Below, in pieces: positions 11,729 through 58,311 of a stretch of 64,000 nt of DNA; position 1 is the stretch's first letter; every line of letters begins with the position of its first letter. Position numbers and translations under genes: made by a program. The DNA is from Candidatus Stoquefichus sp. SB1 (GTDB taxonomy: Bacteria; Bacillota_I; Bacilli_A; Erysipelotrichales; Coprobacillaceae). The stretch is taken from NCBI RefSeq assembly GCF_001244545.1, contig NZ_LN852695.1, positions 186,001-250,000 of the forward strand, read 5' to 3'. The notes under the pieces are model-generated. The model had not been told where the DNA came from, searched no databases, and saw nothing but the letters and a program-made list of their open reading frames with translations.

Positions 11729-13183
11729 TCATTCTGCAATTAGCTGACTGTAGTTTCTCCACCTTGTAAGTTGGGGCTTGTTGATTTGCTGATACTTCCT
11801 TAATGGCAGTCTTTCACTGTATCCCATTCCTCTTCTGGCTATCACATATGATGCTGCCTTATGTATGCTGATTCCTTTCGCTCTGGCATATTTCAGTTTC
11901 CCTATGACACTTGTATACGCCGGATTCACTTCATTGATTCCTATCTTTTCCCTGTATGAGCGACTGTACAGCTTTTCAATGATCTTTCGATATGAGAATT
12001 CACTTAGCATTCTCTGATACTTCTTATTCTGATTGTACACTTCAAAGTCCTTTTTCTTCTTTTCAAAGTTCAGTTCCTCTATAATCAGTGGCTTACCGAC
12101 TTCTTTGCAGTATCCGATAATCTGTTTCACTGTGTTCTCTATAATCCATTTTCTTTGACTTGATGTCTTACTGCTAAGGTCAAAAAGAATATCACGACAG
12201 TATATCAGATTCCCATGTCTGTCTATCTCGCTTAATGATATCCTGTCGTTATTGATATCTATTCCAACTGTTCCTTCTGTGATTTCAAACAGGCATTCCT
12301 CATACTTCACATCAAGTTCTATTGCTGCACTGACAATGAAGTAATCACCTTTATCCTTCAGGGTATAGCACACTGCCTTCCCCTTTGTGGCATGCTTCAG
12401 ATTCAGTACTCTTATCAGTTCTTCCCTGCGATAGGGAAAATCAAGTGAAAAGGCATGTCTTCTCTGATAGGTATCGATATAGGTCATTGTCTTCTTTTCG
12501 TGATCATACTTGAACAGATTGTTGCAGTATTTGCCCTGACTTCTTCCGGTTATCTTCATATACCTGTTTCTATGAAAACGAATCTGCTTCATCCTCTTTT
12601 CAAGCTTTTCTATTTTATGAAGCACCCTTGTCCTTCTGTATCTGAGCTGCTTTAATTTATGTCCTGTTGACCTGATCAGTGGATTCAGTATCTGAACCTC
12701 AAATATATAGAGAAGCATATACTGATTTCTATAGTAGCAGTGAAGAGGATCACAACTGTACCACTTCATACCCCTGCATCTGTAGACAGGCGGAAGCGCT
12801 TCATCATGTGCAATCGCTTTAGAAAGCGCTATAAGAGTAGCCTTGGTCATTTTATACTGTTTAAGAAACTTTGTTTCCTGATCAATCTTCTTTTCAATCT
12901 TCTTTAGCTTCTTCTTTTTCATTGATATAGACTTATGATGCCAGGTCTTCTGTGACTTCAGTATTCCCTTAGCCTCACTGATAGCACTTAAAGGGAAGTA
13001 GTCATTGGTATGATAGATATCCTTCAGATATCTGGAGTTGATGCTATTGTTATTATAGAGTTCTCTATATGACTTATGAAGCATTGACTGATAGAGTGAT
13101 ATATCATTTTGAATAGCGAGAGCAGTATCATTGGATAACTCATGATAATAGACTCTGGTAGATGAAATCGTTATCTTAGGCAT
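11729..13183 (-). CDS. TnpB-family (IS200/IS605 OrfB-like) protein, RuvC site incomplete
   Basis: 484 residues, start supported by AAAGGAG. The N-terminal half is basic and helical (many K/R clusters near residues 85-105 and 180-215). RuvC-I aspartate is in TVGIDINNDRISL (about residue 311) and RuvC-II glutamate in PLIIEELNFEKKK (about 369). The C-terminal segment NPAYTSVIGKLKY ... IHKAASYVIARRG aligns with the RuvC-III region, but the expected D-x-N-A-A aspartate is absent, and there is no CxxC zinc finger. It belongs to the TnpB-related group lacking those motifs. No TnpA partner lies next to it. Base composition is richer in G+C than the neighbours, which fits acquisition. It may be an RNA-guided DNA-binding protein without cleavage. 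Confidence 0.75.
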   Translation of the reverse strand: MPKITISSTRVYYHELSNDTALAIQNDISLYQSMLHKSYRELYNNNSINSRYLKDIYHTNDYFPLSAISEAKGILKSQKTWHHKSISMKKKKLKKIEKKIDQETKFLKQYKMTKATLIALSKAIAHDEALPPVYRCRGMKWYSCDPLHCYYRNQYMLLYIFEVQILNPLIRSTGHKLKQLRYRRTRVLHKIEKLEKRMKQIRFHRNRYMKITGRSQGKYCNNLFKYDHEKKTMTYIDTYQRRHAFSLDFPYRREELIRVLNLKHATKGKAVCYTLKDKGDYFIVSAAIELDVKYEECLFEITEGTVGIDINNDRISLSEIDRHGNLIYCRDILFDLSSKTSSQRKWIIENTVKQIIGYCKEVGKPLIIEELNFEKKKKDFEVYNQNKKYQRMLSEFSYRKIIEKLYSRSYREKIGINEVNPAYTSVIGKLKYARAKGISIHKAASYVIARRGMGYSERLPLRKYQQINKPQLTRWRNYSQLIAE

Positions 13184-23187: not shown

Positions 23188-24672
23188 TTATCTTAGGTCA
23201 CGACCTTGTGGTACAAAATCTCCTGTTTCCATATAATAATAAAGAATACGTTCTTTGAATTTTAAGATAATATCATGATACTTGGGATTATCAATTTGAT
23301 TATGTAATTCTAATGGATCTTGATTTAAATCATACAATTCATCCTTTTCATACAATCTCATTGTATACTTGATATTTCCCATTCTACACATTAATGCTTT
23401 GGTATGTTCTGGTCCTTCACTTGATTGAGTACTTAATCTTGGCCAATATGGTGAAGTAGGTCCATGACCTTTCTCCATCGCTTGAACTTCTCCATGAATA
23501 CGACCACCTTCACAAAAGACTGCATCTTTATGTTGTTCATCTCCAGCTAAAACATGAACCAAAGATTTCCCAAACTGTGTATATGATAATTGAATATTAC
23601 ACATGTCTGCAATTGTTGCTGGTAAATCTAATAATTCTGCTAATGCTTTTGTTTTTCTTGGTTTAACTTTCAAATTTTGTGCAGGTTTAATTAAGAGAGG
23701 AATATTACTAATTGGATTTTCAAAACAATTTTGTACTTTTTCTGTTATATTGTAATCTCCTGTATAATCACCATGATCACTAAAGACAATAATATTTGTA
23801 TCATCATATAGATGATGTTCTTTTAATTTATCACAAATCATACCAAACTGATGATCAAAACGAGATACCATTGCTAAATAAGTTGCTCTTAACTCAGTAA
23901 ATCTTTCTTCACTCCAATTTTGAAGATTTTGTTTAGATTCAATACTATATAACATACTTGCACGATCTTGAAGTGTCGCAATTGATGGTCTTCTTTGTGG
24001 AACCAGACTTCTATCAATCATCGAATACCAAGGATCTTCACAGGCATATGGTGGGTGTGGGAAAGAAATTGTACAATAGAGAAAGAAAGGTTTGCTTTGA
24101 GGCTCTTTGCTTTTTCTATCAATATAATCTAATGCACTTTCAATACAATTCCAATCTTGTTTTCCATATCCTTCACTATCTTTTAATTTTCCAATATAAA
24201 AGGAATAGAAATTATCATCCTGTATCTCTTCTTCTGTGATTTCCTTTTGATAACCCATTGGTAAAAAAGGACTCTTAGGATTATCACGATTGTTTTCAAA
24301 AGATATACCATCATAATATTCATCACAATAAGGTGTTTTGACTTTATCACCTGGAATGACATCATTTCTTCCAATCCAAATGACTTCATATCCATTATCT
24401 TTCATTTCTTTGAGAATATTTGGTTCATCTTCATGTCTTTGAAGATAATGCATTGTTCTGTGTCCTGTTGTATGAGGATAAAGTCCTGTTAAAAAACTAC
24501 AACGTGAGGGAACACAAACAGGGTTTTGACAATAAGCATTTTCAAATGAAATACCTTCTTCTAATAAATTATCTAAATGAGGTGTCACTGCAGCATCATT
24601 CCCCATGTGATGCAATGAATCATTTCTCATTTGATCTGCTACAAATAAAACAATATTTGGTTTTTTACTCAT
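23188..24672 (-). CDS. sulfatase of the formylglycine type (Cys-type)
   Basis: 494 residues of the alkaline-phosphatase/sulfatase fold. The sulfatase signature C-x-P-S-R is in PVCVPSRCSFLTG (about residues 51-63); its first cysteine is the one oxidised to formylglycine. Metal ligands are in FVADQMRND near the start and FSDHGDYTGD about residue 300. No signal peptide is visible, so it is probably cytoplasmic. It follows the PTS EIIC gene by 10 bases, and an anaerobic maturase gene lies nearby. It probably desulfates a sugar brought in by the PTS. Confidence 0.9.
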   Translation of the reverse strand: MSKKPNIVLFVADQMRNDSLHHMGNDAAVTPHLDNLLEEGISFENAYCQNPVCVPSRCSFLTGLYPHTTGHRTMHYLQRHEDEPNILKEMKDNGYEVIWIGRNDVIPGDKVKTPYCDEYYDGISFENNRDNPKSPFLPMGYQKEITEEEIQDDNFYSFYIGKLKDSEGYGKQDWNCIESALDYIDRKSKEPQSKPFFLYCTISFPHPPYACEDPWYSMIDRSLVPQRRPSIATLQDRASMLYSIESKQNLQNWSEERFTELRATYLAMVSRFDHQFGMICDKLKEHHLYDDTNIIVFSDHGDYTGDYNITEKVQNCFENPISNIPLLIKPAQNLKVKPRKTKALAELLDLPATIADMCNIQLSYTQFGKSLVHVLAGDEQHKDAVFCEGGRIHGEVQAMEKGHGPTSPYWPRLSTQSSEGPEHTKALMCRMGNIKYTMRLYEKDELYDLNQDPLELHNQIDNPKYHDIILKFKERILYYYMETGDFVPQGRDLR

Positions 24673-24682
24673 ATCAATTCTC

Positions 24683-25972
24683 CTATTCTTCTGCTTTTAT
24701 AGCGTCTTCCTCTAAACAAGCCTGTTTATCTGCAACTTTAAAGAATGGATAATATATTGCAAATGTTAAAACTAAGCTAAAGACTTGATAAACTGCTACA
24801 CGCCATCCACCTTGAATAAATCCACTAATGATAGGAGGCATTGTCCAAGGAATTTGATACCCAATCAAGACTGGCAATACACCAATAACCGTTAATCCAT
24901 AAGCTATGATTTGGGTAATTAATGGTGCTAAAACAAATGGAATAATTAATGTTGTATTCAATACTAATGGTGTACCAAAAGTTACTGGTTCATTAATATA
25001 GAAAATATTAGCTGGTAAAGCCAATTTTCCTAAAGCTTTAAATCTTTCTGATTTAGCAATAAAGATCATTAGCACACATAATGAAATCGTCATTCCAGCA
25101 CCACCAAATTGATACGTATTTTTAAAAGCTGTTGTATAAATATATTGTGGTGTTCCGCCTGCTTGATAAACTGCTAAGTTTTCTAATGCTAAGGGTAAGA
25201 GTAATGGGTTGCTGATAGAATTGATAATATTTCCACCATGTAAACCAAAGAACCATAAAACATGTAATGCTAATGTGAAAATAATCATTCCAGCAAAGCT
25301 TCCACCAACCATTTGTAATGGTGTTGCTACAAAAGTATAAATCAAACTATGTAAACTTCCATAAGATGTTAAACTAAATAAATAAGCAATAACTAAGAAA
25401 ATTGTTCCTACTAAAAACATTGGAATTAATGAACTAAAAGATTCAGTAACCATTGGTGGAACACCTTCTGGCATTTTAATTGTTAAACCTTTTTTATTAA
25501 AGAAAATAAACAATAAAGATGAAACACAACCAACAATCATTGCAACGAAGAGACCTCTTGCCCCTAACCAGTCAAATCCCAGTGCAGTCACAACGACATC
25601 TTGATTAGTTGTAATTTGTAATAATGGTGTCACAATAATAAATGAAACCAAAGCCGTTAATCCACCTGCAAATCCATTATACCCTTCTTCTTTGGTAAAA
25701 GCATATCCCAAAGCAACAACAGTATATAAAGAAATTAAATCAATTGTTAATTTTGACGGTAAAGCTAGCCATGTTGCTAACCCCGTTTCTGCTAACCAAT
25801 CTGTCCAAGCAGTGACTGGGAAACTTGATACCAATGTGAACATTGAACCAAAAATAGTTAATGGTAATATAATCATGAAACTTTTGTTAATAGCTTTGAG
25901 GTATCTATTATTTCCAAGTTTAATACCAATTGGCATAAGCTTAGACTCTAAGATGTCCATAAATTTTTGCAT
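24683..25972 (-). CDS. PTS system EIIC component, lactose/cellobiose (Lac) family
   Basis: 429 residues from the ATG at 25972. It has about ten hydrophobic segments and the Lac-family motif region FYINEPVTFGTPLVLN (about 325-340) preceded by HVLWFFGLHGGNI. The EIIC subunit forms the sugar channel; EIIA and EIIB are not encoded nearby, so they must come from elsewhere. It is the first gene of the sulfatase operon and diverges from the RpiR regulator. The palindrome at 26029-26042 sits just after its TATAAT, where a repressor would block transcription. Confidence 0.88.
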   Translation of the reverse strand: MQKFMDILESKLMPIGIKLGNNRYLKAINKSFMIILPLTIFGSMFTLVSSFPVTAWTDWLAETGLATWLALPSKLTIDLISLYTVVALGYAFTKEEGYNGFAGGLTALVSFIIVTPLLQITTNQDVVVTALGFDWLGARGLFVAMIVGCVSSLLFIFFNKKGLTIKMPEGVPPMVTESFSSLIPMFLVGTIFLVIAYLFSLTSYGSLHSLIYTFVATPLQMVGGSFAGMIIFTLALHVLWFFGLHGGNIINSISNPLLLPLALENLAVYQAGGTPQYIYTTAFKNTYQFGGAGMTISLCVLMIFIAKSERFKALGKLALPANIFYINEPVTFGTPLVLNTTLIIPFVLAPLITQIIAYGLTVIGVLPVLIGYQIPWTMPPIISGFIQGGWRVAVYQVFSLVLTFAIYYPFFKVADKQACLEEDAIKAEE

Positions 25973-26028
25973 TTTTTCCTTTTCCTCCCTCTCGATGATT
26001 TTTACTTTCAGCTGTATACAGTTAATAA

Positions 26029-26042
26029 TGAAACTTGTTTCA
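26029..26042. promoter_or_regulatory. candidate RpiR operator, copy 1
   Basis: TGAAACTTGTTTCA is a 14-base palindrome, present twice and only in the divergent region. This copy overlaps the predicted start point of the EIIC/sulfatase promoter (minus-strand TATAAT at about 26048), consistent with repression. Confidence 0.5.
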
Positions 26043-26115
26043 CTTATATTATACATATTTTAAAACTATTTTCAATAATATTTTAAAAATAGTTTTATTA
26101 TTTTATAAAAATATT

Positions 26116-26129
26116 TGAAACTTGTTTCA
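26116..26129. promoter_or_regulatory. candidate RpiR operator, copy 2
   Basis: An identical palindrome lies immediately upstream of the regulator's own -35 (TTGACA at 26132-26137, TATGAT 17 bp on), suggesting autoregulation. Confidence 0.5.
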
Positions 26130-26192
26130 TTTTGACATTATTTTCATATTCTTGTATGATATATATATGATGCATATAATTGGAGGTATCAT

Positions 26193-26978
26193 ATGAACCC
26201 TTTTGAACGTTTAGATTTTTATAAAAATAATTATACAAAAAGTGAACAACTTATATATGATTGGATTAAAAAAAATCCTTCAACTGTCGTTATAGACAGT
26301 ATTGATGCTTTAGCTTTAGAAACATCAACATCTAAAGCTGCTATTATCAGATTTAGCAAAAAGATTGGTTATTCTGGTTTTGCAGAATTCAAGTTTGAAC
26401 TTTCTCGTTATATCATATCTGGAAGTCGTGAAAATGAAAATGAGAGTATGGATATTGCTCGTTCTATTACATCTTTATATGCTGGTTATATTAAACAAAT
26501 TAATGATTACATAGATTTAAAGAATATCAGAAAGATTGCAAAATTAATATCAAATGCAAAGCGTGTTAAAATTATTGGTAAGAATAGAACAGGTTTTTCA
26601 GCATTACAATTTCGTTATCGTTTAACAAAGATAGGTTTTGATGCTGAAGCATTAACTGATCCTATCTTGATTGAACAGATTCAAGAAAGTTTAACAAAAG
26701 GTGATGTTGCGATTATCTTTACAACTCGTGCTGCTGATCCAAAATATTATGAATTTATTAAGACAGTTTCAAAAAATGGTGTAACAACTGTTGTGATTAC
26801 ATGTACAGAAACAAAACTCATCAAACAAGCAAATTATCATGTATTATTACCTTCTATTGAAAATGCCTCAACGTCATCTTTCTTAGATAATCAAACAATT
26901 CTCTTTGTTTTTATAGAAATCTTATTAGCTGAATTGGCTTATATTGTAAATGGAAATTATAATCATAATAAAAAATAA
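26193..26978 (+). CDS. RpiR/MurR-family transcriptional regulator
   Basis: 261 residues. The N-terminal HTH_6 domain (about 1-78; ALETSTSKAAIIRFSKKIGYSGFAEF type) is followed by a SIS sugar-phosphate-binding domain (about 100-240; KIIGKNRTG, IIFTTRAADP, VVITCTE). Such regulators respond to phosphorylated sugars. It is divergent from the EIIC-sulfatase operon, which is its likely target. GGAGG precedes the start and a terminator follows at 26994. Confidence 0.9.
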   Translation: MNPFERLDFYKNNYTKSEQLIYDWIKKNPSTVVIDSIDALALETSTSKAAIIRFSKKIGYSGFAEFKFELSRYIISGSRENENESMDIARSITSLYAGYIKQINDYIDLKNIRKIAKLISNAKRVKIIGKNRTGFSALQFRYRLTKIGFDAEALTDPILIEQIQESLTKGDVAIIFTTRAADPKYYEFIKTVSKNGVTTVVITCTETKLIKQANYHVLLPSIENASTSSFLDNQTILFVFIEILLAELAYIVNGNYNHNKK

Positions 26979-26993
26979 AAGAAATAAAAGTTC

Positions 26994-27027
26994 AAAGGAA
27001 AGACTTTTTTATATCTTTCCTTTTGTT
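26994..27027. terminator. terminator between convergent rpiR and anSME genes
   Basis: AAAGGAAAGA pairs with TCTTTCCTTT, followed by a T-rich stretch on the plus strand. Confidence 0.65.
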
Positions 27028-27032
27028 TATCC

Positions 27033-28115
27033 TTATTTCAATTTTCCTTGTCCTATATTATAAAATATTTGATAAGTTTCTTTTAAAAATGCTTGATAAC
27101 CACAATAATCATCATCAAAATAAACAATATTCATTCTTTTACATTGACCATGACAGATATTCTTAAATTGACATGTTTGACATAATTTTGAATATCTTTT
27201 TTCTTGTTGTAAAAATTTTTGTGCATTTACTGATTGTTTTAATTTTAAAAGAGAATCATTTTTAATATTTCCTAAACTATATTGATCTAGTGCATAAAAA
27301 TCACATGGATACACAGTTCCATCGCCTTCTATAATAAATTGTAACTGACATTGTCCTAACATACCACAAGTTCTTGGATAATGGCCTTGAAAAATCATTA
27401 ATAAATCTTCAAATAAAGAGATAGAAACATATTTTCCTTGTTTTAAATCTTCATACCATAATGGAAAGATTTGATGATAAAATTGATAAAAGTCTTGTGG
27501 TCTTAAATAATATTGATCTGTAGAATTATCTAATTCAGGTAAACAGGGAATGAATTGAATATATTGAAAATTTTGTTGTTTATAAAACTCATATATTTCT
27601 TTAGCATAAGGAATCATTTGTCGTGTTATTACTGTTAATATATTATAGTCTATTTTTTTCTTTTTCATTTGTTGAATATGTTGAAAGACTTTATGAAATG
27701 TAGGTTCTTTCCCTTTGACTCTCATTTGATTATGAATATATTCATTTCCATCTAATGAGATTCCAACTAAAAAATGATTTTCTTTAAAAAAATCTAACCA
27801 CTCTTCATCTAAAATCAATCCATTTGTTTGAATAGCATAATGAATAATATGGTCTTTTTTATTTTTATGAACATAATCTACAAAATATTGAAAATATTCA
27901 AGTCCAGCCACTGTTGGTTCTCCACCTTGAAAAGCAAAAGTGATGTCTTTTGCATCATTTAATGCTTTATCTATAAGTATTTCAACAGTATCTTTTGACA
28001 TAATCCCTTTGGAATAGTTTTCTCTTTGTTTTGAAACATCACTATAAAAACAATATAAACAATTCATATTACACAAAGATGATGCTGGTTTAATTAAGTA
28101 TGAACTGCTCTTCAT
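27033..28115 (-). CDS. anaerobic sulfatase-maturating enzyme (radical SAM/SPASM)
   Basis: 360 residues from the ATG at 28115 (AGGTGA upstream). The radical SAM cluster motif CNMNCLYC starts at residue 15, and AFQGGEPT (about 62) is the SAM-binding GGE. C-terminal SPASM cysteines are in RTCGMLGQCQLQF, YPCDFYALDQ and CQTCQFKNICHGQC (about 255-330). Such enzymes convert the active-site cysteine or serine of sulfatases to formylglycine without oxygen. The nearby Cys-type sulfatase is the obvious client. Confidence 0.93.
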   Translation of the reverse strand: MKSSSYLIKPASSLCNMNCLYCFYSDVSKQRENYSKGIMSKDTVEILIDKALNDAKDITFAFQGGEPTVAGLEYFQYFVDYVHKNKKDHIIHYAIQTNGLILDEEWLDFFKENHFLVGISLDGNEYIHNQMRVKGKEPTFHKVFQHIQQMKKKKIDYNILTVITRQMIPYAKEIYEFYKQQNFQYIQFIPCLPELDNSTDQYYLRPQDFYQFYHQIFPLWYEDLKQGKYVSISLFEDLLMIFQGHYPRTCGMLGQCQLQFIIEGDGTVYPCDFYALDQYSLGNIKNDSLLKLKQSVNAQKFLQQEKRYSKLCQTCQFKNICHGQCKRMNIVYFDDDYCGYQAFLKETYQIFYNIGQGKLK

Positions 28116-28167
28116 TCTATCACCTACTTTAAACATAGTATAACAATATAATGAAAATTAATCTATG

Positions 28168-28200: not shown

Positions 28201-28437
28201 CTAGCAATATGATGGTAAATACATTTGAGGATTATCTTTATATTTATTAGCTTCTTCCTCTGTAAGAAAAACTGTCATATGAATTTGTCTTGAAGCAATT
28301 CTATGAGGTCCTGCACACCCTGCATAACCTTCAATGCTAAATTCATAATCATCTTCATGACCTTCAATATCCATAACCTTACCAGACATAACATATCCAT
28401 TCATTAAGAAATAAACAATTGTACCTTCTTTTAACAT
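28201..28437 (-). CDS. small protein of unknown function downstream of the serine-hydrolase-like gene
   Basis: 78 residues from the ATG at 28437; its ribosome site AGAAGG lies in the last codons of the upstream gene. Upstream in-frame GTG/ATG codons are possible but worse placed. The sequence starts with short strands (EGTIVYFLMNGYVMSGKV), suggesting a small beta-barrel. Translationally coupled to the preceding gene. No family recognised. Confidence 0.55.
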   Translation of the reverse strand: MLKEGTIVYFLMNGYVMSGKVMDIEGHEDDYEFSIEGYAGCAGPHRIASRQIHMTVFLTEEEANKYKDNPQMYLPSYC

Positions 28438-28441
28438 ATTT

Positions 28442-29941
28442 TTACCTTCTTTCATAAACACTTGCTCCTACATGAACAATTTCTTCTAATAATTTTTGCA
28501 TTTTTATAATAATTGGATGATTCTCTAAACCATAATGTTCAGCCATTTTTCTTGTTTTTTCAAAAGCTAACCATGTACTTCCTTGTTCATCTTGCCAAAC
28601 AGCTATTTTTAATGGCAATTGTAAGGCAATACTTTGATCTATCAACATTAGATTTGTACCTACTTTTGGTGCTCCAAAAACCAATACTGACGTTTCTCTT
28701 AAATTCATACCAACATCTTGGGCATTCTTAGCATGATCGAATTTTGCAAAGAGTGGAATATTTCTTCTTTGTAATTCTTTTTCTAATTTTAAAATGGTTT
28801 CTTGAACAGATAATTGTCCTTCTATTAAATATAACTGATTATCATCATAATTTGTAGATAATAAATCTCCGAATGCTCCTGCTATTTTTCTACCTAAGTT
28901 TGTAAAATCAACATTTTCTTTATTGGCTAATAAAGTGACACAAACAAGTTCATGAGAATCAGTAAAACGACTTAAAAATGCTGAATATCCTGGAACTCCT
29001 CCTTTAATATCCATGAGTCCACGATGTTTATAAAATTGCCATCCAGCAACTGCTGGCACTTCCTGTCCATTAGGTAAATTCCAAGGTTTATAGATTTTGT
29101 TTCGATTTTCAATATCATGAATTAAAACCCCACCTGCTAATCCAATATCCCAAAAAGATATGTCTTGAGCACTTGCCCATATATCATTATACCCTTTTGT
29201 AACTTGTGGAATTATTTCTATACCAGATTCATCATAACTTCTTGAATATTCTGTTGGATCAATATACTCTCCATTTGTTTTAAACATTTGATGAATATAA
29301 TCACTTTTAGAAACATCTTCATGTTTAAATTGAGAAAGATTTTCATAAAATCCTGTATGTCTTAAATTTAAGAATTGAATCTGTTTTTCAGTAATAAATT
29401 CATGATAACTTTGTTGACTTATTCTTTCTATGATTTCACTTAAGAATAAGAAATTGATAGGATTCATTTCAACATCTTCACCTGGTAAAAAATGAAGTGG
29501 TTCTTCTTTTAATGCATCAATAACATCATGAAATAGTATTTTATCTTCATAATGAGGTAATCCACTTGCATGATGTAATAAATCAATAATGCGGATATCT
29601 TTCCACATATCTGGAATTTCACTCAGATAATATTGAATTGATTTATCTAAATCAATCTTTCCTTCTTCATATAATTGCATAATAGCAACAGCACAAAATG
29701 CTTGTGAAATAGGACCAACTGGAAACATTGTATTGACACTTGCTAATCTTTTTTCTTTAACATCAGATAATCCATATCCAACAACTCTTGGAATATAAGG
29801 AGCCTGAACAATTGCAAGTGTTAAACCTGGTATTTCTTCTTCTTTCATAAAATCAATTATCATTTGATCAACACTATTGTCTAAATAACTAACATCATAA
29901 CTTCCACGCAATTTCATTTCTTTATGTTCTTTTGTATTCAT
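28442..29941 (-). CDS. beta-lactamase-fold protein lacking catalytic residues, fused to DUF302
   Basis: 499 residues. Residues 1-360 align with class C beta-lactamase/serine-hydrolase proteins (FPVGPISQAFCAVAIMQL, LLHHASGLPHY, GGVPGYSAFLSRF). The S-x-x-K nucleophile motif reads P-I-S-Q, the Y-x-N motif reads M-N-P, and the H-x-G before GGVPG is replaced, so the hydrolase site appears lost. Residues about 375-499 are a DUF302 domain (FDHAKNAQDVGMNL, FGAPKVGTNLML, WQDEQGSTWLAF). The Rrf2 regulator gene ends one base upstream. It is probably a ligand-binding or redox-related protein, not a resistance enzyme. Confidence 0.8.
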   Translation of the reverse strand: MNTKEHKEMKLRGSYDVSYLDNSVDQMIIDFMKEEEIPGLTLAIVQAPYIPRVVGYGLSDVKEKRLASVNTMFPVGPISQAFCAVAIMQLYEEGKIDLDKSIQYYLSEIPDMWKDIRIIDLLHHASGLPHYEDKILFHDVIDALKEEPLHFLPGEDVEMNPINFLFLSEIIERISQQSYHEFITEKQIQFLNLRHTGFYENLSQFKHEDVSKSDYIHQMFKTNGEYIDPTEYSRSYDESGIEIIPQVTKGYNDIWASAQDISFWDIGLAGGVLIHDIENRNKIYKPWNLPNGQEVPAVAGWQFYKHRGLMDIKGGVPGYSAFLSRFTDSHELVCVTLLANKENVDFTNLGRKIAGAFGDLLSTNYDDNQLYLIEGQLSVQETILKLEKELQRRNIPLFAKFDHAKNAQDVGMNLRETSVLVFGAPKVGTNLMLIDQSIALQLPLKIAVWQDEQGSTWLAFEKTRKMAEHYGLENHPIIIKMQKLLEEIVHVGASVYERR

Positions 29942-29942
29942 A

Positions 29943-30374
29943 TTATTTTTCCTTTGTATTAGAGATATTTTCTAAATCAATCAGAATATCTCTAATTGTT
30001 ATAGTTGCTAAATAATCCTGACAAACATTTTCTAAATCATTACAAAGATCATCAACAACATGTGACATACCACTACTGATCATACATTCATTATGAATGT
30101 CTCCACTTCGCCATGATGTCTGACAAATATTAATTTGTAAAGCATCATAAATTTGTTTCAATGTGATGGTTTCTTTACCAACTTGAAAGAAATAACCACC
30201 ATTTAATCCTTCTTTTGTTTCTATAATACCTGCTTTTTTTAATGGAGCTAAAACTTTTCTTATTCTTACAGGATTTACACAAACATTTTTAGCAATTTCT
30301 TCACTTGACATTTGCTTTGCTTCCTTTCGCAAATAAGCCAGTACATGAATAGCTATTATAAACTCACTTGGCAT
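29943..30374 (-). CDS. Rrf2-family transcriptional regulator
   Basis: 143 residues. A winged helix occupies the N-terminal about 80 residues (MSSEEIAKNVCVNPVRIRKVLAPLKKAGII, then GGYF), as in Rrf2 proteins. Two downstream cysteines (NICQTSW, NECMISS) could hold a cofactor or respond to redox. It shares a transcript with the DUF302 fusion, so it probably controls that gene in response to redox, nitrosative or iron-sulfur status (inference). GAGGTGATAGG precedes the start. Confidence 0.85.
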   Translation of the reverse strand: MPSEFIIAIHVLAYLRKEAKQMSSEEIAKNVCVNPVRIRKVLAPLKKAGIIETKEGLNGGYFFQVGKETITLKQIYDALQINICQTSWRSGDIHNECMISSGMSHVVDDLCNDLENVCQDYLATITIRDILIDLENISNTKEK

Positions 30375-30461
30375 CCTATCACCTCTTAACTGTAACTTTT
30401 TTTATTACATTTATATCATAAACTCATTTTCCCATTTTATCAATCAATATGCACTTATATA

Positions 30462-30490: not shown

Positions 30491-31464
30491 TCATTATGAA
30501 GTGAATATGTCTATGTATGTAGAACGTTCCTCTTTGGGAATATCTAAGAAATCTAATGCCTCTTCTAGTGTATAACCATTTTTAGCTATGAGTTTCTTTA
30601 TTGATTCAATCAGTCCTTGCTGCCTACCAATGGTCTTTCCTCTTGCTTCTCCAATGGCTTCTCCTTCAAGCAATCCCTTTCTTCTAATCTCTTCCCATAT
30701 TTCACACATCTCTTGTTTCCCTCCTTCGTTTTCCTTATAATAGCTGACTCTCTTCCTTAGAAACTCATAGTGCATCTCACTTGAATCAGTACAGAACATA
30801 TCATGCATTAATCTCCCTAGTGCTGTATCCTCCTGAATGCTTGCATTCACATAGATAATCTCTCTTCCTTCTTCAAACATCTGATTGTTTTCATCAATTC
30901 TACAATGACTATGATAGATTGGCAATCCATATCCCAATACATCTGTCTCGGTTATAAAGATAATGATCACATTGGGAAGCTTATCCCATTGTTCATTGGG
31001 AAACGATGTATTCGCATCTATCAGACTTCCATGAAACCTCGCTCTTTTAGGATGTGCTCCTTTGGTATCTCTCTGTACTTCAATGTTGATATAGTCATCA
31101 CCATCCCTGACAAGTACATCAATGCTGATAGATCTACCCAGAATATTATTGATATCATACTGAGCATGACATTCAATGATATCAACACTCCTTTCAAGGA
31201 TAATTTCAAGAAACTGTCTGACGACATCCTCATCCTTAAAGACAATCCTCATGAAGTCATCATCCATCAGTCTCAGTCTGGCAATAGAATCAAGATAATC
31301 GGTATTGCCTTCATGAACAAATAAAGTCATTCAATAAATCCCTCCTTATATTGATATAAGGAATCTAATAACAATATAGCACAATAATTGCTTAAAGTAA
31401 ATATTTATTCAAAAGATCCCTATACTTATATATACACAAAAAAAGTTCATTTTTCTTTTTTTAA
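30463..31464 (-). repeat. long inverted repeat, copy 1 (Rpn unit)
   Basis: About 1 kb including roughly 130 bases of upstream DNA, the gene and its terminator is closely similar to 51548-52562 on the opposite strand. The upstream parts match almost base for base. Confidence 0.85.
30494..31330 (-). CDS. Rpn-family recombination-promoting nuclease/putative transposase (PD-(D/E)XK), copy 1
   Basis: 278 residues. The N-terminal about 215 residues are a PD-(D/E)XK nuclease domain of the Rpn/PDDEXK_2 family, with core ISIDVLVRDGDDYINIEVQRD (aspartate and the ExQ pair near residues 73-87). The C-terminal tail has the glycine-spaced GEAIGEARGKTIGRQQG repeat typical of the family, then a short helical end (EEALDFLDIPKEE). 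Escherichia coli Rpn proteins are DNA endonucleases that promote RecA-independent recombination. A close inverted copy lies 20 kb away on the other side of the origin. Confidence 0.85.
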   Translation of the reverse strand: MTLFVHEGNTDYLDSIARLRLMDDDFMRIVFKDEDVVRQFLEIILERSVDIIECHAQYDINNILGRSISIDVLVRDGDDYINIEVQRDTKGAHPKRARFHGSLIDANTSFPNEQWDKLPNVIIIFITETDVLGYGLPIYHSHCRIDENNQMFEEGREIIYVNASIQEDTALGRLMHDMFCTDSSEMHYEFLRKRVSYYKENEGGKQEMCEIWEEIRRKGLLEGEAIGEARGKTIGRQQGLIESIKKLIAKNGYTLEEALDFLDIPKEERSTYIDIFTS

Positions 31465-51680: not shown

Positions 51681-52529
51681 ATGACTTTATTTGTTCATGA
51701 AGGCAATACTGATTATCTTGATTCTATTGCCAGACTGAGACTGATGGATGATGACTTCATGAGGATTGTCTTTAAGGATGAGGATGTTGTCAGACAGTTT
51801 CTTGAAATTATCCTTGATAGGAAAGTTGATATCATTGAATGTCATGCTCAGTATGATATCAATAATATTCTGGGTAGATCTATCAGTATTGATGTACTTG
51901 TCAGGGATGGTGATGACTATATCAACATTGAAGTGCAGAGAGATACCAAAGGAGCACATCCTAAAAGAGCGAGGTTTCATGGAAGCCTGATAGATGCGAA
52001 TACATCATTTCCCAATGAACAATGGGATAAGCTACCCAATGTCATCATTATCTTTATAACAGAGACAGATGTATTGGGATATGGATTGCCAATCTATCAT
52101 ATTTGTTCAATAATTTCTGAAAATACTCAATGGTTTAAAGAAGGAAGGGAGATTATCTATGTGAATGCAAGCATTCAGGAGGATACAGCACTAGGGAGAT
52201 TAATGCATGATATGTTCTGTACTGATCCAAAAGATATTCATTATGAGTTTCTAAGAAAGAGAGTAAGATATTACAAAGAAAATGAAGGAGGGAAAAGAAA
52301 GATGTGTGAGATATGGGAAGAAATCAAAAATAAAGGAAAACTTGAGGGCTTACGTGAAGGCGAATCCATTGGAAAGCAAGCTGGATTGGCTGAAGGAGAG
52401 ATAATAGGAATCCTAAAATCAATTCGCAAACTTATAGCTAAGAATGGTTACACATTAGAAGAAGCACTAGATTTCTTAGATATCCCTAAAGATGAACAAT
52501 CTAAGTACATAGAAAAATTCACTTCATAA
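51681..52529 (+). CDS. Rpn-family recombination-promoting nuclease/putative transposase (PD-(D/E)XK), copy 2
   Basis: 282 residues, almost identical to copy 1 over residues 1-140, including the nuclease core ISIDVLVRDGDDYINIEVQRD. A patch after LPIYH differs strongly (ICSIISENTQWFK against SHCRIDENNQMFE), and so does the glycine-spaced tail, before identity returns at KLIAKNGYTLEEALDFLDIP. Such patchy divergence suggests recombination with other family members. Same ribosome site AAGGAGG and leader as copy 1. Confidence 0.85.
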   Translation: MTLFVHEGNTDYLDSIARLRLMDDDFMRIVFKDEDVVRQFLEIILDRKVDIIECHAQYDINNILGRSISIDVLVRDGDDYINIEVQRDTKGAHPKRARFHGSLIDANTSFPNEQWDKLPNVIIIFITETDVLGYGLPIYHICSIISENTQWFKEGREIIYVNASIQEDTALGRLMHDMFCTDPKDIHYEFLRKRVRYYKENEGGKRKMCEIWEEIKNKGKLEGLREGESIGKQAGLAEGEIIGILKSIRKLIAKNGYTLEEALDFLDIPKDEQSKYIEKFTS

Positions 52530-54163: not shown

Positions 54164-55360
54164 CTATGCTGCAATCAGCCTTTCCATTTCAGCCTTTGCG
54201 GAAGCGAAAGTTGCGTGTGCGTAATAATTCAGTGTCATGGTGATATTGGAGTGTCCCATAATATACTGTAACGCTTTCGGGTTCATGCCCGCATTGGCTA
54301 AGTTGGTGCAGAACGTATGACGCAGGGTGTGAGGTGTCATTACTTTGGGTAAGGCTTCCTCATGGCACTTGTTGTACTTCTTCGCAAGCCCCCGGAACAT
54401 ATTATCATAGCTTGTCGCCGTTTTCGGGCAACCGTCCCGGTTGAGGAAAAGGAAATTGCTGTAACCGTCAATCGTGATCGGCTTCGATCCCTTGCGGTTC
54501 TCCAACACGCGCCCCAACGCTTCATATACTTTTTCACTCATTGGAATTTGTCTGATACCGCTTTCTGTTTTGGGCTTCTCTATGTAGTAGCCTGTTTCCG
54601 CGCTCCGTAAAAGCTGGTGGTCTACATTGATTATCCTGTTTTCAAAATCAAGGTCGGTTTCAGTTAGTCCGCAGAGTTCGGAAACCCTAAGCCCTGTCCC
54701 CAGCAGTATGATAACCTCGTCACGGTATTTCTGATAGACGCTATCACCTTGCATAAAGGATAAAAGGCTTTCTTCCTGTTCCGCTGTGAGAGGTACTTTC
54801 GGCTCTGTGTCGTCCTCAATCACGGTGTTTAGCTGGAAGTCAAAGGGGTTCTTCCTTATACAGTCGTCCTGTATCGCTGTGTAAAAAGCAGCTTTCAAAG
54901 AACGCTTGTCATTGCTTATGGTCTTATAGGATATTCCCTTTTCTTTCATGCGCAACGCCCATTCTTTCGCGTCGGACAGTTTCACACTGTCAATGGGGCA
55001 GGAACCAAGTTTATCCGCTTCCAGCAGCTTCATCAGCCGTTCGCGCCCCTTTGTGGTGTTATGCCTTACGTTCCCCCGGTGGCGGTTCTGCTTTGCGTAA
55101 AGCTCGCAGACGGTCATTTTCTTTCCGATTGTGTCTATCCCGTCGTCAAGGTCTTTCCGTATCTCTTTTTCTTTTTCTCTAAGGGATATGTCGTCACGCT
55201 TCCCGGCTGGGGTCTTGTCCGTAGGTACTAACTTCCACGCATAGACAAATTGCACTTTACCAAAAGTATCGGTATATTTATAAGCATATCTCCCGTCTTT
55301 TCTCTGGCTCTCTCCCGAACGCAAAATGCGGTTTTTATTATCACGTCTTTTCTCCGACAT
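54164..55360 (-). CDS. int: Tn916-family tyrosine integrase
   Basis: 398 residues from the ATG at 55360 (AAAGGAG upstream), the same start as Tn916 Int (MSEKRRDN). An arm-binding domain (GESQRKDGRYAYKYTD) comes first, then a core-binding domain (about 90-180). The catalytic domain shows GTGLRVSEL (Arg), HTLRHTFCTN (His-x-x-Arg), the later histidine in MGHSNITM and the tyrosine in TLNYYAHATF. It integrates and excises the element with Xis. Confidence 0.97.
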   Translation of the reverse strand: MSEKRRDNKNRILRSGESQRKDGRYAYKYTDTFGKVQFVYAWKLVPTDKTPAGKRDDISLREKEKEIRKDLDDGIDTIGKKMTVCELYAKQNRHRGNVRHNTTKGRERLMKLLEADKLGSCPIDSVKLSDAKEWALRMKEKGISYKTISNDKRSLKAAFYTAIQDDCIRKNPFDFQLNTVIEDDTEPKVPLTAEQEESLLSFMQGDSVYQKYRDEVIILLGTGLRVSELCGLTETDLDFENRIINVDHQLLRSAETGYYIEKPKTESGIRQIPMSEKVYEALGRVLENRKGSKPITIDGYSNFLFLNRDGCPKTATSYDNMFRGLAKKYNKCHEEALPKVMTPHTLRHTFCTNLANAGMNPKALQYIMGHSNITMTLNYYAHATFASAKAEMERLIAA

Positions 55361-55449
55361 TGTTTTTGCTCCTTTCCGTGTCGGAAAGAGCCTTGATATG
55401 CTTATATTTATTATAGCACATTCAAGGCTCTTTTTCACTATCTTTTTCG

Positions 55450-57321: not shown

Positions 57322-58311
57322 TTATTTCTGTTGTTTTTTGGCTTTATTATATGTATTAGCTAACTGTCCACAAGCTGCTTTAATCTCTCTACCATGAGAA
57401 ACTCTCATGGTAACTTCAAGTCCTGTTTGCTCTAATTGATGTTTGAACGCAACCATTTCTTGTTTTTGTGGTGCTCTAATTTTTGAATTACTCGTCGGGT
57501 TGTATTGCAGCACGTTAATCATAACATTTTTGCCCTTAAACCATTTTGCAAGTTGCCTTATATCTGAGGAACGGTCATTTATACCTGGTAAAAGCAAATA
57601 CGCAAATACCACTTTTCGATTATGCCTTTGAGAATAGGACAATGCTTGCTTAACAACATCTTCAATAGCGTACATGTGCATATGAGGAATGATACAGTTT
57701 CTCGCAGCCTGTGTTGCTGCATGTAAAGATATTGTCAACTGAATTTTTAGATGTTCTTCGCGCAATTTTTTTAATTGATTAACTGGACCAACTGTTGATA
57801 CGGTAATGCCGTCGGTTGGAAAGTTAAGTCCATTTCTATCTCGAAGAATATGGATTGCTGCAATCAAGTTGTCGTAATTGAATAAAGGTTCTCCCATTCC
57901 CATAAAAACGATACGATTTACTTTTTGACGTATCAATACAACCTGCTGCACAATTTCAGACGGTGTTAGATTACGAACAAAACCATTGCGTCCGGACTCA
58001 CAAAAAATACAGCCAACAGAACAACCAACTTGCGTACTTACGCAAACAGTCCCACCATCTCGCCGTTTAATAAAAACCGTTTCAATATACCTGTTATCTT
58101 TCAATTCATAAACATACTTTTCAGTATCGCTACTTTTATAGACTTTTTTTGTTGATATTGATAGATTTTCTTTGTGAAATGGCTGTTTATACAATTCCGT
58201 ATATAAGGCTCTTGCTTTATCCTCTCCAATTACTTCCGACATTTCTTTGTAAGTAAATCCGTATGGGTCATTCAATATTTCCGTAGGTGTACTTTTAGGT
58301 AAGTGTTTCAT
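57322..58311 (-). CDS. RlmN/Cfr-family radical SAM rRNA adenine methyltransferase (mobile cargo)
   Basis: 329 residues. The cluster motif is GCSVGCIFC (CxxxCxxC, about 97-104). The two catalytic cysteines of RlmN and Cfr are both present: one in TVCVSTQ just before the cluster and one in KAACGQL near residue 315. MGMGEPLFNYDN and LTISLHAA are further family motifs. Substrate should be A2503 of 23S rRNA. The usual CATG after the cluster reads CESG, so it is divergent from housekeeping RlmN; it is also not standard Cfr. AAGGAAGG precedes the start. It is AT-richer than the surrounding element, and its operon has an attenuator leader, which points to an inducible resistance role (inference). Confidence 0.85.
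   Translation of the reverse strand: MKHLPKSTPTEILNDPYGFTYKEMSEVIGEDKARALYTELYKQPFHKENLSISTKKVYKSSDTEKYVYELKDNRYIETVFIKRRDGGTVCVSTQVGCSVGCIFCESGRNGFVRNLTPSEIVQQVVLIRQKVNRIVFMGMGEPLFNYDNLIAAIHILRDRNGLNFPTDGITVSTVGPVNQLKKLREEHLKIQLTISLHAATQAARNCIIPHMHMYAIEDVVKQALSYSQRHNRKVVFAYLLLPGINDRSSDIRQLAKWFKGKNVMINVLQYNPTSNSKIRAPQKQEMVAFKHQLEQTGLEVTMRVSHGREIKAACGQLANTYNKAKKQQK

Follow-up and report, generated by a model that had tools for sequence, protein, structure and literature searches.

The window analyzed here is a 64,000-nucleotide stretch of the Candidatus Stoquefichus sp. SB1 genome (contig NZ_LN852695.1). Within it lies an operon of three tightly packed minus-strand genes, which encode an Rrf2 regulator, a 499-residue fusion protein, and a small protein (Table 1). 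The fusion gene starts 1 bp past the end of the regulator gene, and the small gene follows 4 bp past the end of the fusion. An earlier reading, made from the sequence alone, had placed these genes correctly, and the small coupled gene that it proposed downstream of the fusion is borne out by the 4-bp gap and by orthologs in the same place in two related operons (genomes G028 and G268). The most likely start of this gene is the ATG at 28437, which follows GAAGG, rather than the GTG at 28461. Its product returned no match in Pfam and NCBIfam searches and carries one invariant cysteine, C41; a relative in Hungatella (G424, locus L171) has the operator described below upstream of it.

Table 1. Features of the operon and their coordinates in the window
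Feature	Position	Strand	Evidence or remark
Operator TGTAATAAAAAAAGTTACA	30391..30409	-	17 bp ahead of the Rrf2 start codon; exact TGTAAY-N7-RTTACA
HypR-like Rrf2 regulator, 143 aa, C32/C97/C118	29943..30374	-	Pfam Rrf2 E 4e-23; NCBIfam HypR 93 bits
Pseudo-beta-lactamase-DUF302 fusion, 499 aa, no signal peptide	28442..29941	-	Pfam, AlphaFold model, fold match
S12/class C beta-lactamase domain, residues 24-345	28907..29872	-	PF00144 E 6.6e-33; Z 33-35
Former SxxK motif, now P-I-S-Q, residues 77-80	29702..29713	-	Ser77/Lys80 in 0/84 homologs
Former YxN motif, now M-N-P, residues 159-161	29459..29467	-	Tyr159 in 0/84 homologs
Former K/H-x-G motif, now I-K-G, residues 312-314	29000..29008	-	His/Lys312 in 0/84; Lys313 in 76/84
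DUF302, Pfam match residues 401-460, folded unit 367-499, invariant H403	28562..28741	-	PF03625 E 6.8e-17
Small cysteine protein, 78 aa, start ATG 28437, invariant C41	28201..28437	-	Orthologs in G028 and G268 operons

A PD-(D/E)XK transposase-family gene (30494-31330) lies immediately upstream of the operon, and a near-identical, oppositely oriented copy (51681-52529) occurs at a distance of 21 kb. The region directly downstream (23188-28136) holds a sulfatase-family gene, an EIIC-type PTS permease assigned by eye, an RpiR-type regulator, and a radical SAM enzyme resembling anaerobic sulfatase maturases; by appearance, these look like a sulfated-sugar cluster.

Domains and catalytic site of the fusion protein

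Pfam assigns residues 24 to 345 of the fusion to the beta-lactamase family (PF00144, E 6.6e-33) and residues 401 to 460 to DUF302 (PF03625, E 6.8e-17; 61.5 bits against a gathering cut-off of 23). An AlphaFold model of the fusion, built with 46 homologs, reached a pLDDT of 90.9 and a pTM of 0.90. In a fold search, residues 13 to 361 of this model matched human LACTB (Z 35.5) and AmpC (Z 33.7), so that the fold motifs of an S12 protein are indeed kept, as the sequence-only reading had held. The DUF302 attachment that it described is confirmed both by Pfam and by structure, as the C-terminal 133 residues modeled alone (pLDDT 95) matched three solved DUF302 structures (Z 19.8 for 7tj1, then 17.6 and 14.9). 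Past these three entries, the top score in that search was only 8.4 (KA1 domains, Bet v 1-like proteins, and RnlA), a likeness that we take as a common arrangement.

DUF302 structures have been solved since 2004. The DUF302 literature that we examined names such genes, and we found no proven function in it. The domain studied here resembles known DUF302 proteins (PF03625; 1q9u, 1j3m, and the CrcB-linked 7tj1) in fold and sequence but differs in its fusion to a dead S12 domain and in its HypR-type operator. No description of a pseudo-beta-lactamase-DUF302 fusion was found in the literature searched, in line with the earlier suggestion that the system is undescribed. In a tree built on 133 columns, solo DUF302 genes from other Bacilli (L116 and L119) did not group with the fusions, and they have no neighbors in common with them. 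A Parabacteroides distasonis plasmid (L127:2069-4366) carries DUF302 at the C terminus of a protein annotated as a beta-galactosidase, and this DUF302 is 59% identical to that of Bacteroides fusions.

The catalytic motifs of the S12 fold are replaced in the fusion: SxxK by P77-I-S-Q80, YxN by M159-N-P161, and K/HxG by I312-K-G314. Alignment with the FmtA-like protein 4gdn pairs SNTK with PISQ and YSN with MNP. A homolog scan of species genomes yielded 126 relatives, of which 80 were retrieved; the alignment comprised 84 proteins and drew on about ten phyla (Bacillota, Bacteroidota, Synergistota, Chlamydiota, Planctomycetota, Verrucomicrobiota, Lentisphaerota, Acidobacteriota, Thermodesulfobacteriota, and Pseudomonadota). 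Ser77, Lys80, Tyr159, and His/Lys312 each occur in 0/84 of these proteins. The substitutions listed by the sequence-only reading are confirmed. Twelve residues elsewhere are invariant in 84/84 (Q46, A47, P48, Y49, R52, W301, F303, G308, R325, F326, L332, and C334), although conservation of QAPY was partly favored by design, through the scan patterns [LM]AIVQAPY and AF[TC]AVA[IV]M. The invariant residues outside QAPY were not part of these patterns, and three plasmid homologs recovered by a pattern-free tblastn also carry QAPY. Because no homolog keeps the catalytic residues while these twelve are invariant, the loss, as judged from the alignment, is family-wide and old, beyond chance or local decay. 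An intact set of SxxK, YxN, and KTG elsewhere in the protein was sought in the 84-homolog alignment and the fold match, and none was found. Since its defining residues were checked and are absent, we do not class the fusion as a beta-lactamase.

Other positions around the old site are well conserved. S/T79 (Ser or Thr) is present in 82/84 homologs and Lys313 in 76/84, and positions 160 and 161 are Ser in 82/84 and Ala in 80/84, which gives a family norm of [Q/L]-S-A-T-N. The M-N-P sequence is peculiar to the window protein, and position 160 is N in the window protein and V in G028. Since M-N-P departs from the family norm, the old site appears to be drifting in the window lineage while the invariant residues hold. 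Judging by the strand order of the fold, those invariant residues would lie at the sheet end that is remote from the former active site. The wide conservation of S/T79 and K313 near the old site raises the question as to whether the S12 domain has remained a hydrolase that works through another active site, in which S/T79, S160, or C334 would be the nucleophile, K313 the base, and an oxidized or acylated metabolite the substrate. We consider this unlikely, given that S/T79 is the noncatalytic third residue of its motif, that S160 is replaced in both the window protein and G028, and that DUF302 alone stands for the fusion in the G268 operon.

A hydrophobic N-terminal leader is absent from family members in Bacillota, Synergistota, Desulfovibrionaceae, and Oxalobacter and from some in Legionella, and it is found in almost all remaining members. 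With the leader absent here and present there, a cytosolic location would be expected for the fusion in the window organism and a periplasmic one in most other Gram-negative carriers. The S12 fold is what one would see in a cell wall or beta-lactam sensor of penicillin-binding protein descent, but the Bacillota members have no signal peptide or membrane anchor, the acylable serine is gone, and no wall genes appear in the regulon described below; such a sensor is highly improbable. Compared with class C beta-lactamases and S12 hydrolases (AmpC, LACTB, and FmtA-like proteins), the family shares the fold (Z 33 to 35 over ~310 residues) but lacks all three catalytic motifs, carries DUF302, and is predicted to be cytosolic in Bacillota. 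The family represents a widespread repurposing of the beta-lactamase fold.

The HypR-like regulator, its operator, and its regulon

The first gene of the operon encodes an Rrf2 domain (82.4 bits against a Pfam cut-off of 30), and its best NCBIfam model is HypR (NF041852). We refer to the protein as HypR-like and not as HypR, because its score of 93.3 bits is under the curated equivalog cut-off of 180. C32, C97, and C118 are present in 18/18 close orthologs, which bears out the cysteine-containing Rrf2 gene of the earlier reading; C84 and C111 occur only in the window and G028 among the close orthologs compared. Through the model alignment (residues 1-134 to 1-136), C32 and C97 correspond to Cys33 and Cys99 of Staphylococcus aureus HypR, which senses HOCl and HOSCN via a Cys33-Cys99' disulfide and controls hypR-merA, in which merA encodes an HOSCN reductase (PMC10715087).

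Across 392 genomes of the window's phylum, regulator matches beyond 1e-30 were found in four. The nearest relatives of the regulator are those of G028, G268, and G338. An ortholog of the regulator (43 to 50% identity) was present in each of the 12 Clostridia genomes tested, and in 6 of the 12 it adjoins an RclA/MerA-like gene. The window operon and the S. aureus hypR-merA operon have related Rrf2 regulators with both switch cysteines; an adjoining RclA/MerA-like reductase, as in S. aureus, is seen for the orthologs in G338 and these six Clostridia. Unlike the S. aureus regulator, however, the window regulator misses the HypR equivalog cut-off, and it heads the fusion and the small gene instead of merA.

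The sequence-only reading had proposed a redox- or metal-related system. The redox part is supported, given the HypR-like regulator and the linked thiol-redox and inorganic sulfur genes; the metal part, with iron and nitric oxide, is not. A metal, iron, NO, or fluoride role would have the regulator be an Fe-S sensor of the IscR/NsrR type or DUF302 serve fluoride export, as a CrcB-DUF302 arrangement would, and the nearest solved DUF302 structure (7tj1) is annotated as part of a CrcB fluoride transporter. The IscR and NsrR models give the regulator 36 and 18 bits, respectively, against 93 for HypR, and crcB and metal genes are absent among the linked or regulon genes, which makes this role very unlikely.

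The site TGTAAT-N7-GTTACA (30391-30409) sits just ahead of the regulator's ribosome-binding site. The window genome (3.59 Mb) contains three exact TGTAAY-N7-RTTACA sites, one of which is that of the window operon. An equivalent site precedes the orthologous operons in G028, where the three-gene arrangement is the same, and in G268, where the order is hypR, a single-domain DUF302 gene, the small gene, trxA, and trxB. It also precedes the rclA-hypR operon of G338, in which an RclA/MerA-like reductase comes before the regulator. In the window genome, the rclA-like gene lies in a separate rclA-trxA-ccdA-like cluster that has no site. In G028, the one relative that shares the three-gene operon, the sole rclA/merA-like gene found (L146, G028:C2) has an interrupting stop codon.

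With up to one mismatch allowed, the site lies within 250 bp upstream of the fusion gene in 12 of 18 Bacillota and Synergistota members, against 0.06 expected from shuffles and 7 of 220 other ORFs in the same loci. In the window, G028, and L007, which have no proximal site at the fusion, it precedes the first gene of the operon; L017 and L019 have none, and L012 has only a weak one. In other phyla, the site was ahead of the fusion at 0 of 67 loci. Most Clostridia sites are tandem pairs 26 to 28 bp apart, like those ahead of hypR or rclA (27 bp), and the fusion there usually has no adjacent Rrf2 gene. A divergent Rrf2 group of the same class (L095, L098, L100, and L103) has sites with identical half-sites at a 36- to 42-bp spacing, often repeated ahead of neighbors such as macrodomain-like and flavoprotein genes. 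Since this group uses the same half-site, the site alone cannot name the regulator.

Exact sites in five genomes numbered 28, against 8 for a reversed-pattern control. By inspection, 18 of the 28 precede thiol-redox or NADPH genes, the fusion, or a relative of the small protein; the other 10 are about the number predicted by the control. Genes with an upstream site include the fusion, hypR, rhodanese, rhodanese-rclA, trxA-trxB, lactonase-gnd, rpiA, msrAB, and the small-protein relative. These genes reduce thiols and methionine and supply NADPH. Membership of the fusion in a HypR-type thiol-oxidant regulon in Bacillota is well supported, and the operators connect DUF302 with the oxidant regulon that commensal gut bacteria possess (Hungatella, Blautia, Clostridium, and relatives). 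The result is a predicted HypR-like thiol-oxidant regulon that would cover NADPH supply, RclA, thioredoxin, rhodanese, and MsrAB in anaerobes exposed to neutrophil oxidants when the gut is inflamed. Relative to the rclABCR reactive-chlorine system, a Clostridia RclA-like reductase has the regulator and the site in common with the fusion, but the regulator is of the Rrf2 type and not an AraC-type RclR, and the fusion is no known rcl gene.

Gene neighborhoods and proposed function

In Proteobacteria, a thiosulfate dehydrogenase gene is often the neighbor of the fusion. It lies directly downstream, mostly at 11 to 15 bp, in Alphaproteobacteria, Rhodanobacteraceae, and an Acidobacterium; 11 of 11 tested products match NF052225, 10 of them above its cut-off. 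Clustering of gene neighbors over all loci returned mainly ORFs antisense to the fusion itself, and the thiosulfate dehydrogenase family was the only broadly conserved neighbor. At single loci in other phyla, the fusion adjoins genes for DsrE, rhodanese, an exported thioredoxin (L026), or rubrerythrin. Elsewhere, trxA-trxB lies downstream (L006), isochorismatase-type hydrolases lie near the fusion (L030 and L044), and RclC, a further parallel to rclABCR, is encoded ~3 kb away on a Novosphingobium plasmid (L004). At many fusion loci in other phyla, no redox-related neighbor was seen. The sulfur-gene neighborhood is shared with the DUF302 genes noted in sox clusters of sulfur oxidizers (PMC5037610).

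The thioredoxin neighbors (trxA/trxB in L006 and G268 and the exported protein in L026), together with the invariant C334, would also fit a redox-responsive partner protein that binds no small ligand, with C334 or the DUF302 surface docking thioredoxin or clients as a chaperone or disulfide-exchange platform. C334 is, however, the single invariant cysteine, the secondary structure of the model puts it in a core strand, and Proteobacteria pair the fusion with thiosulfate dehydrogenase, not thioredoxin. We assign this possibility a low probability.

Taken together, we favor, with moderate confidence, a reading in which the three genes form an oxidant-induced operon and the fusion serves thiol-oxidant defense and is not a classical serine hydrolase. 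At rest, the HypR-like repressor would occupy the operator. Thiol oxidants (HOCl, HOSCN, and related reactive sulfur species) would drive a C32-C97 disulfide across opposing subunits, a switch that we infer for the window regulator, and the repressor would leave the DNA. The fusion would then be made in the cytosol, in relatives alongside RclA/MerA, thioredoxin and its reductase, rhodanese, MsrAB, and NADPH-supplying enzymes.

Because a lone DUF302 takes the fusion's position in the operon of G268, it suggests itself as the working part. The dead S12 domain would then be a scaffold or a binding half, and its conserved residues would have relocated to the sheet edge, away from the old active site. 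The fusion probably acts on oxidized sulfur species, and the case that the family as a whole handles oxidized sulfur or thiol species is moderately good. As to the actual chemistry, we would only tentatively suggest that S12 and DUF302 jointly bind or convert a small oxidized-sulfur species, for which an oxidized thiol, an S-sulfonate, or a thiosulfate- or thiocyanate-like adduct are candidates. A broader and more doubtful possibility is that the beta-lactamase fold and DUF302 together make up a new enzyme or binder for reactive sulfur or chlorine species, cytosolic under a HypR-type switch in gut anaerobes and periplasmic beside thiosulfate dehydrogenase in Proteobacteria; if so, DUF302 would have its first known function. 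These associations provide a first testable lead on the function of a widespread, undescribed fusion family.

Two further genes on the minus strand of the window drew our attention. A 484-residue protein (11729-13183) matches RNA-guided TnpB only weakly and in part (43.7 bits against a cut-off of 100) and is possibly a divergent TnpB-like protein. An RlmN/Cfr-type radical SAM rRNA methyltransferase (57322-58311) scores 270 bits with the RlmN model, slightly short of its 290-bit cut-off, and well under the Cfr cut-offs; its gene lies inside an apparently integrated element with a tyrosine recombinase at 54164-55438.
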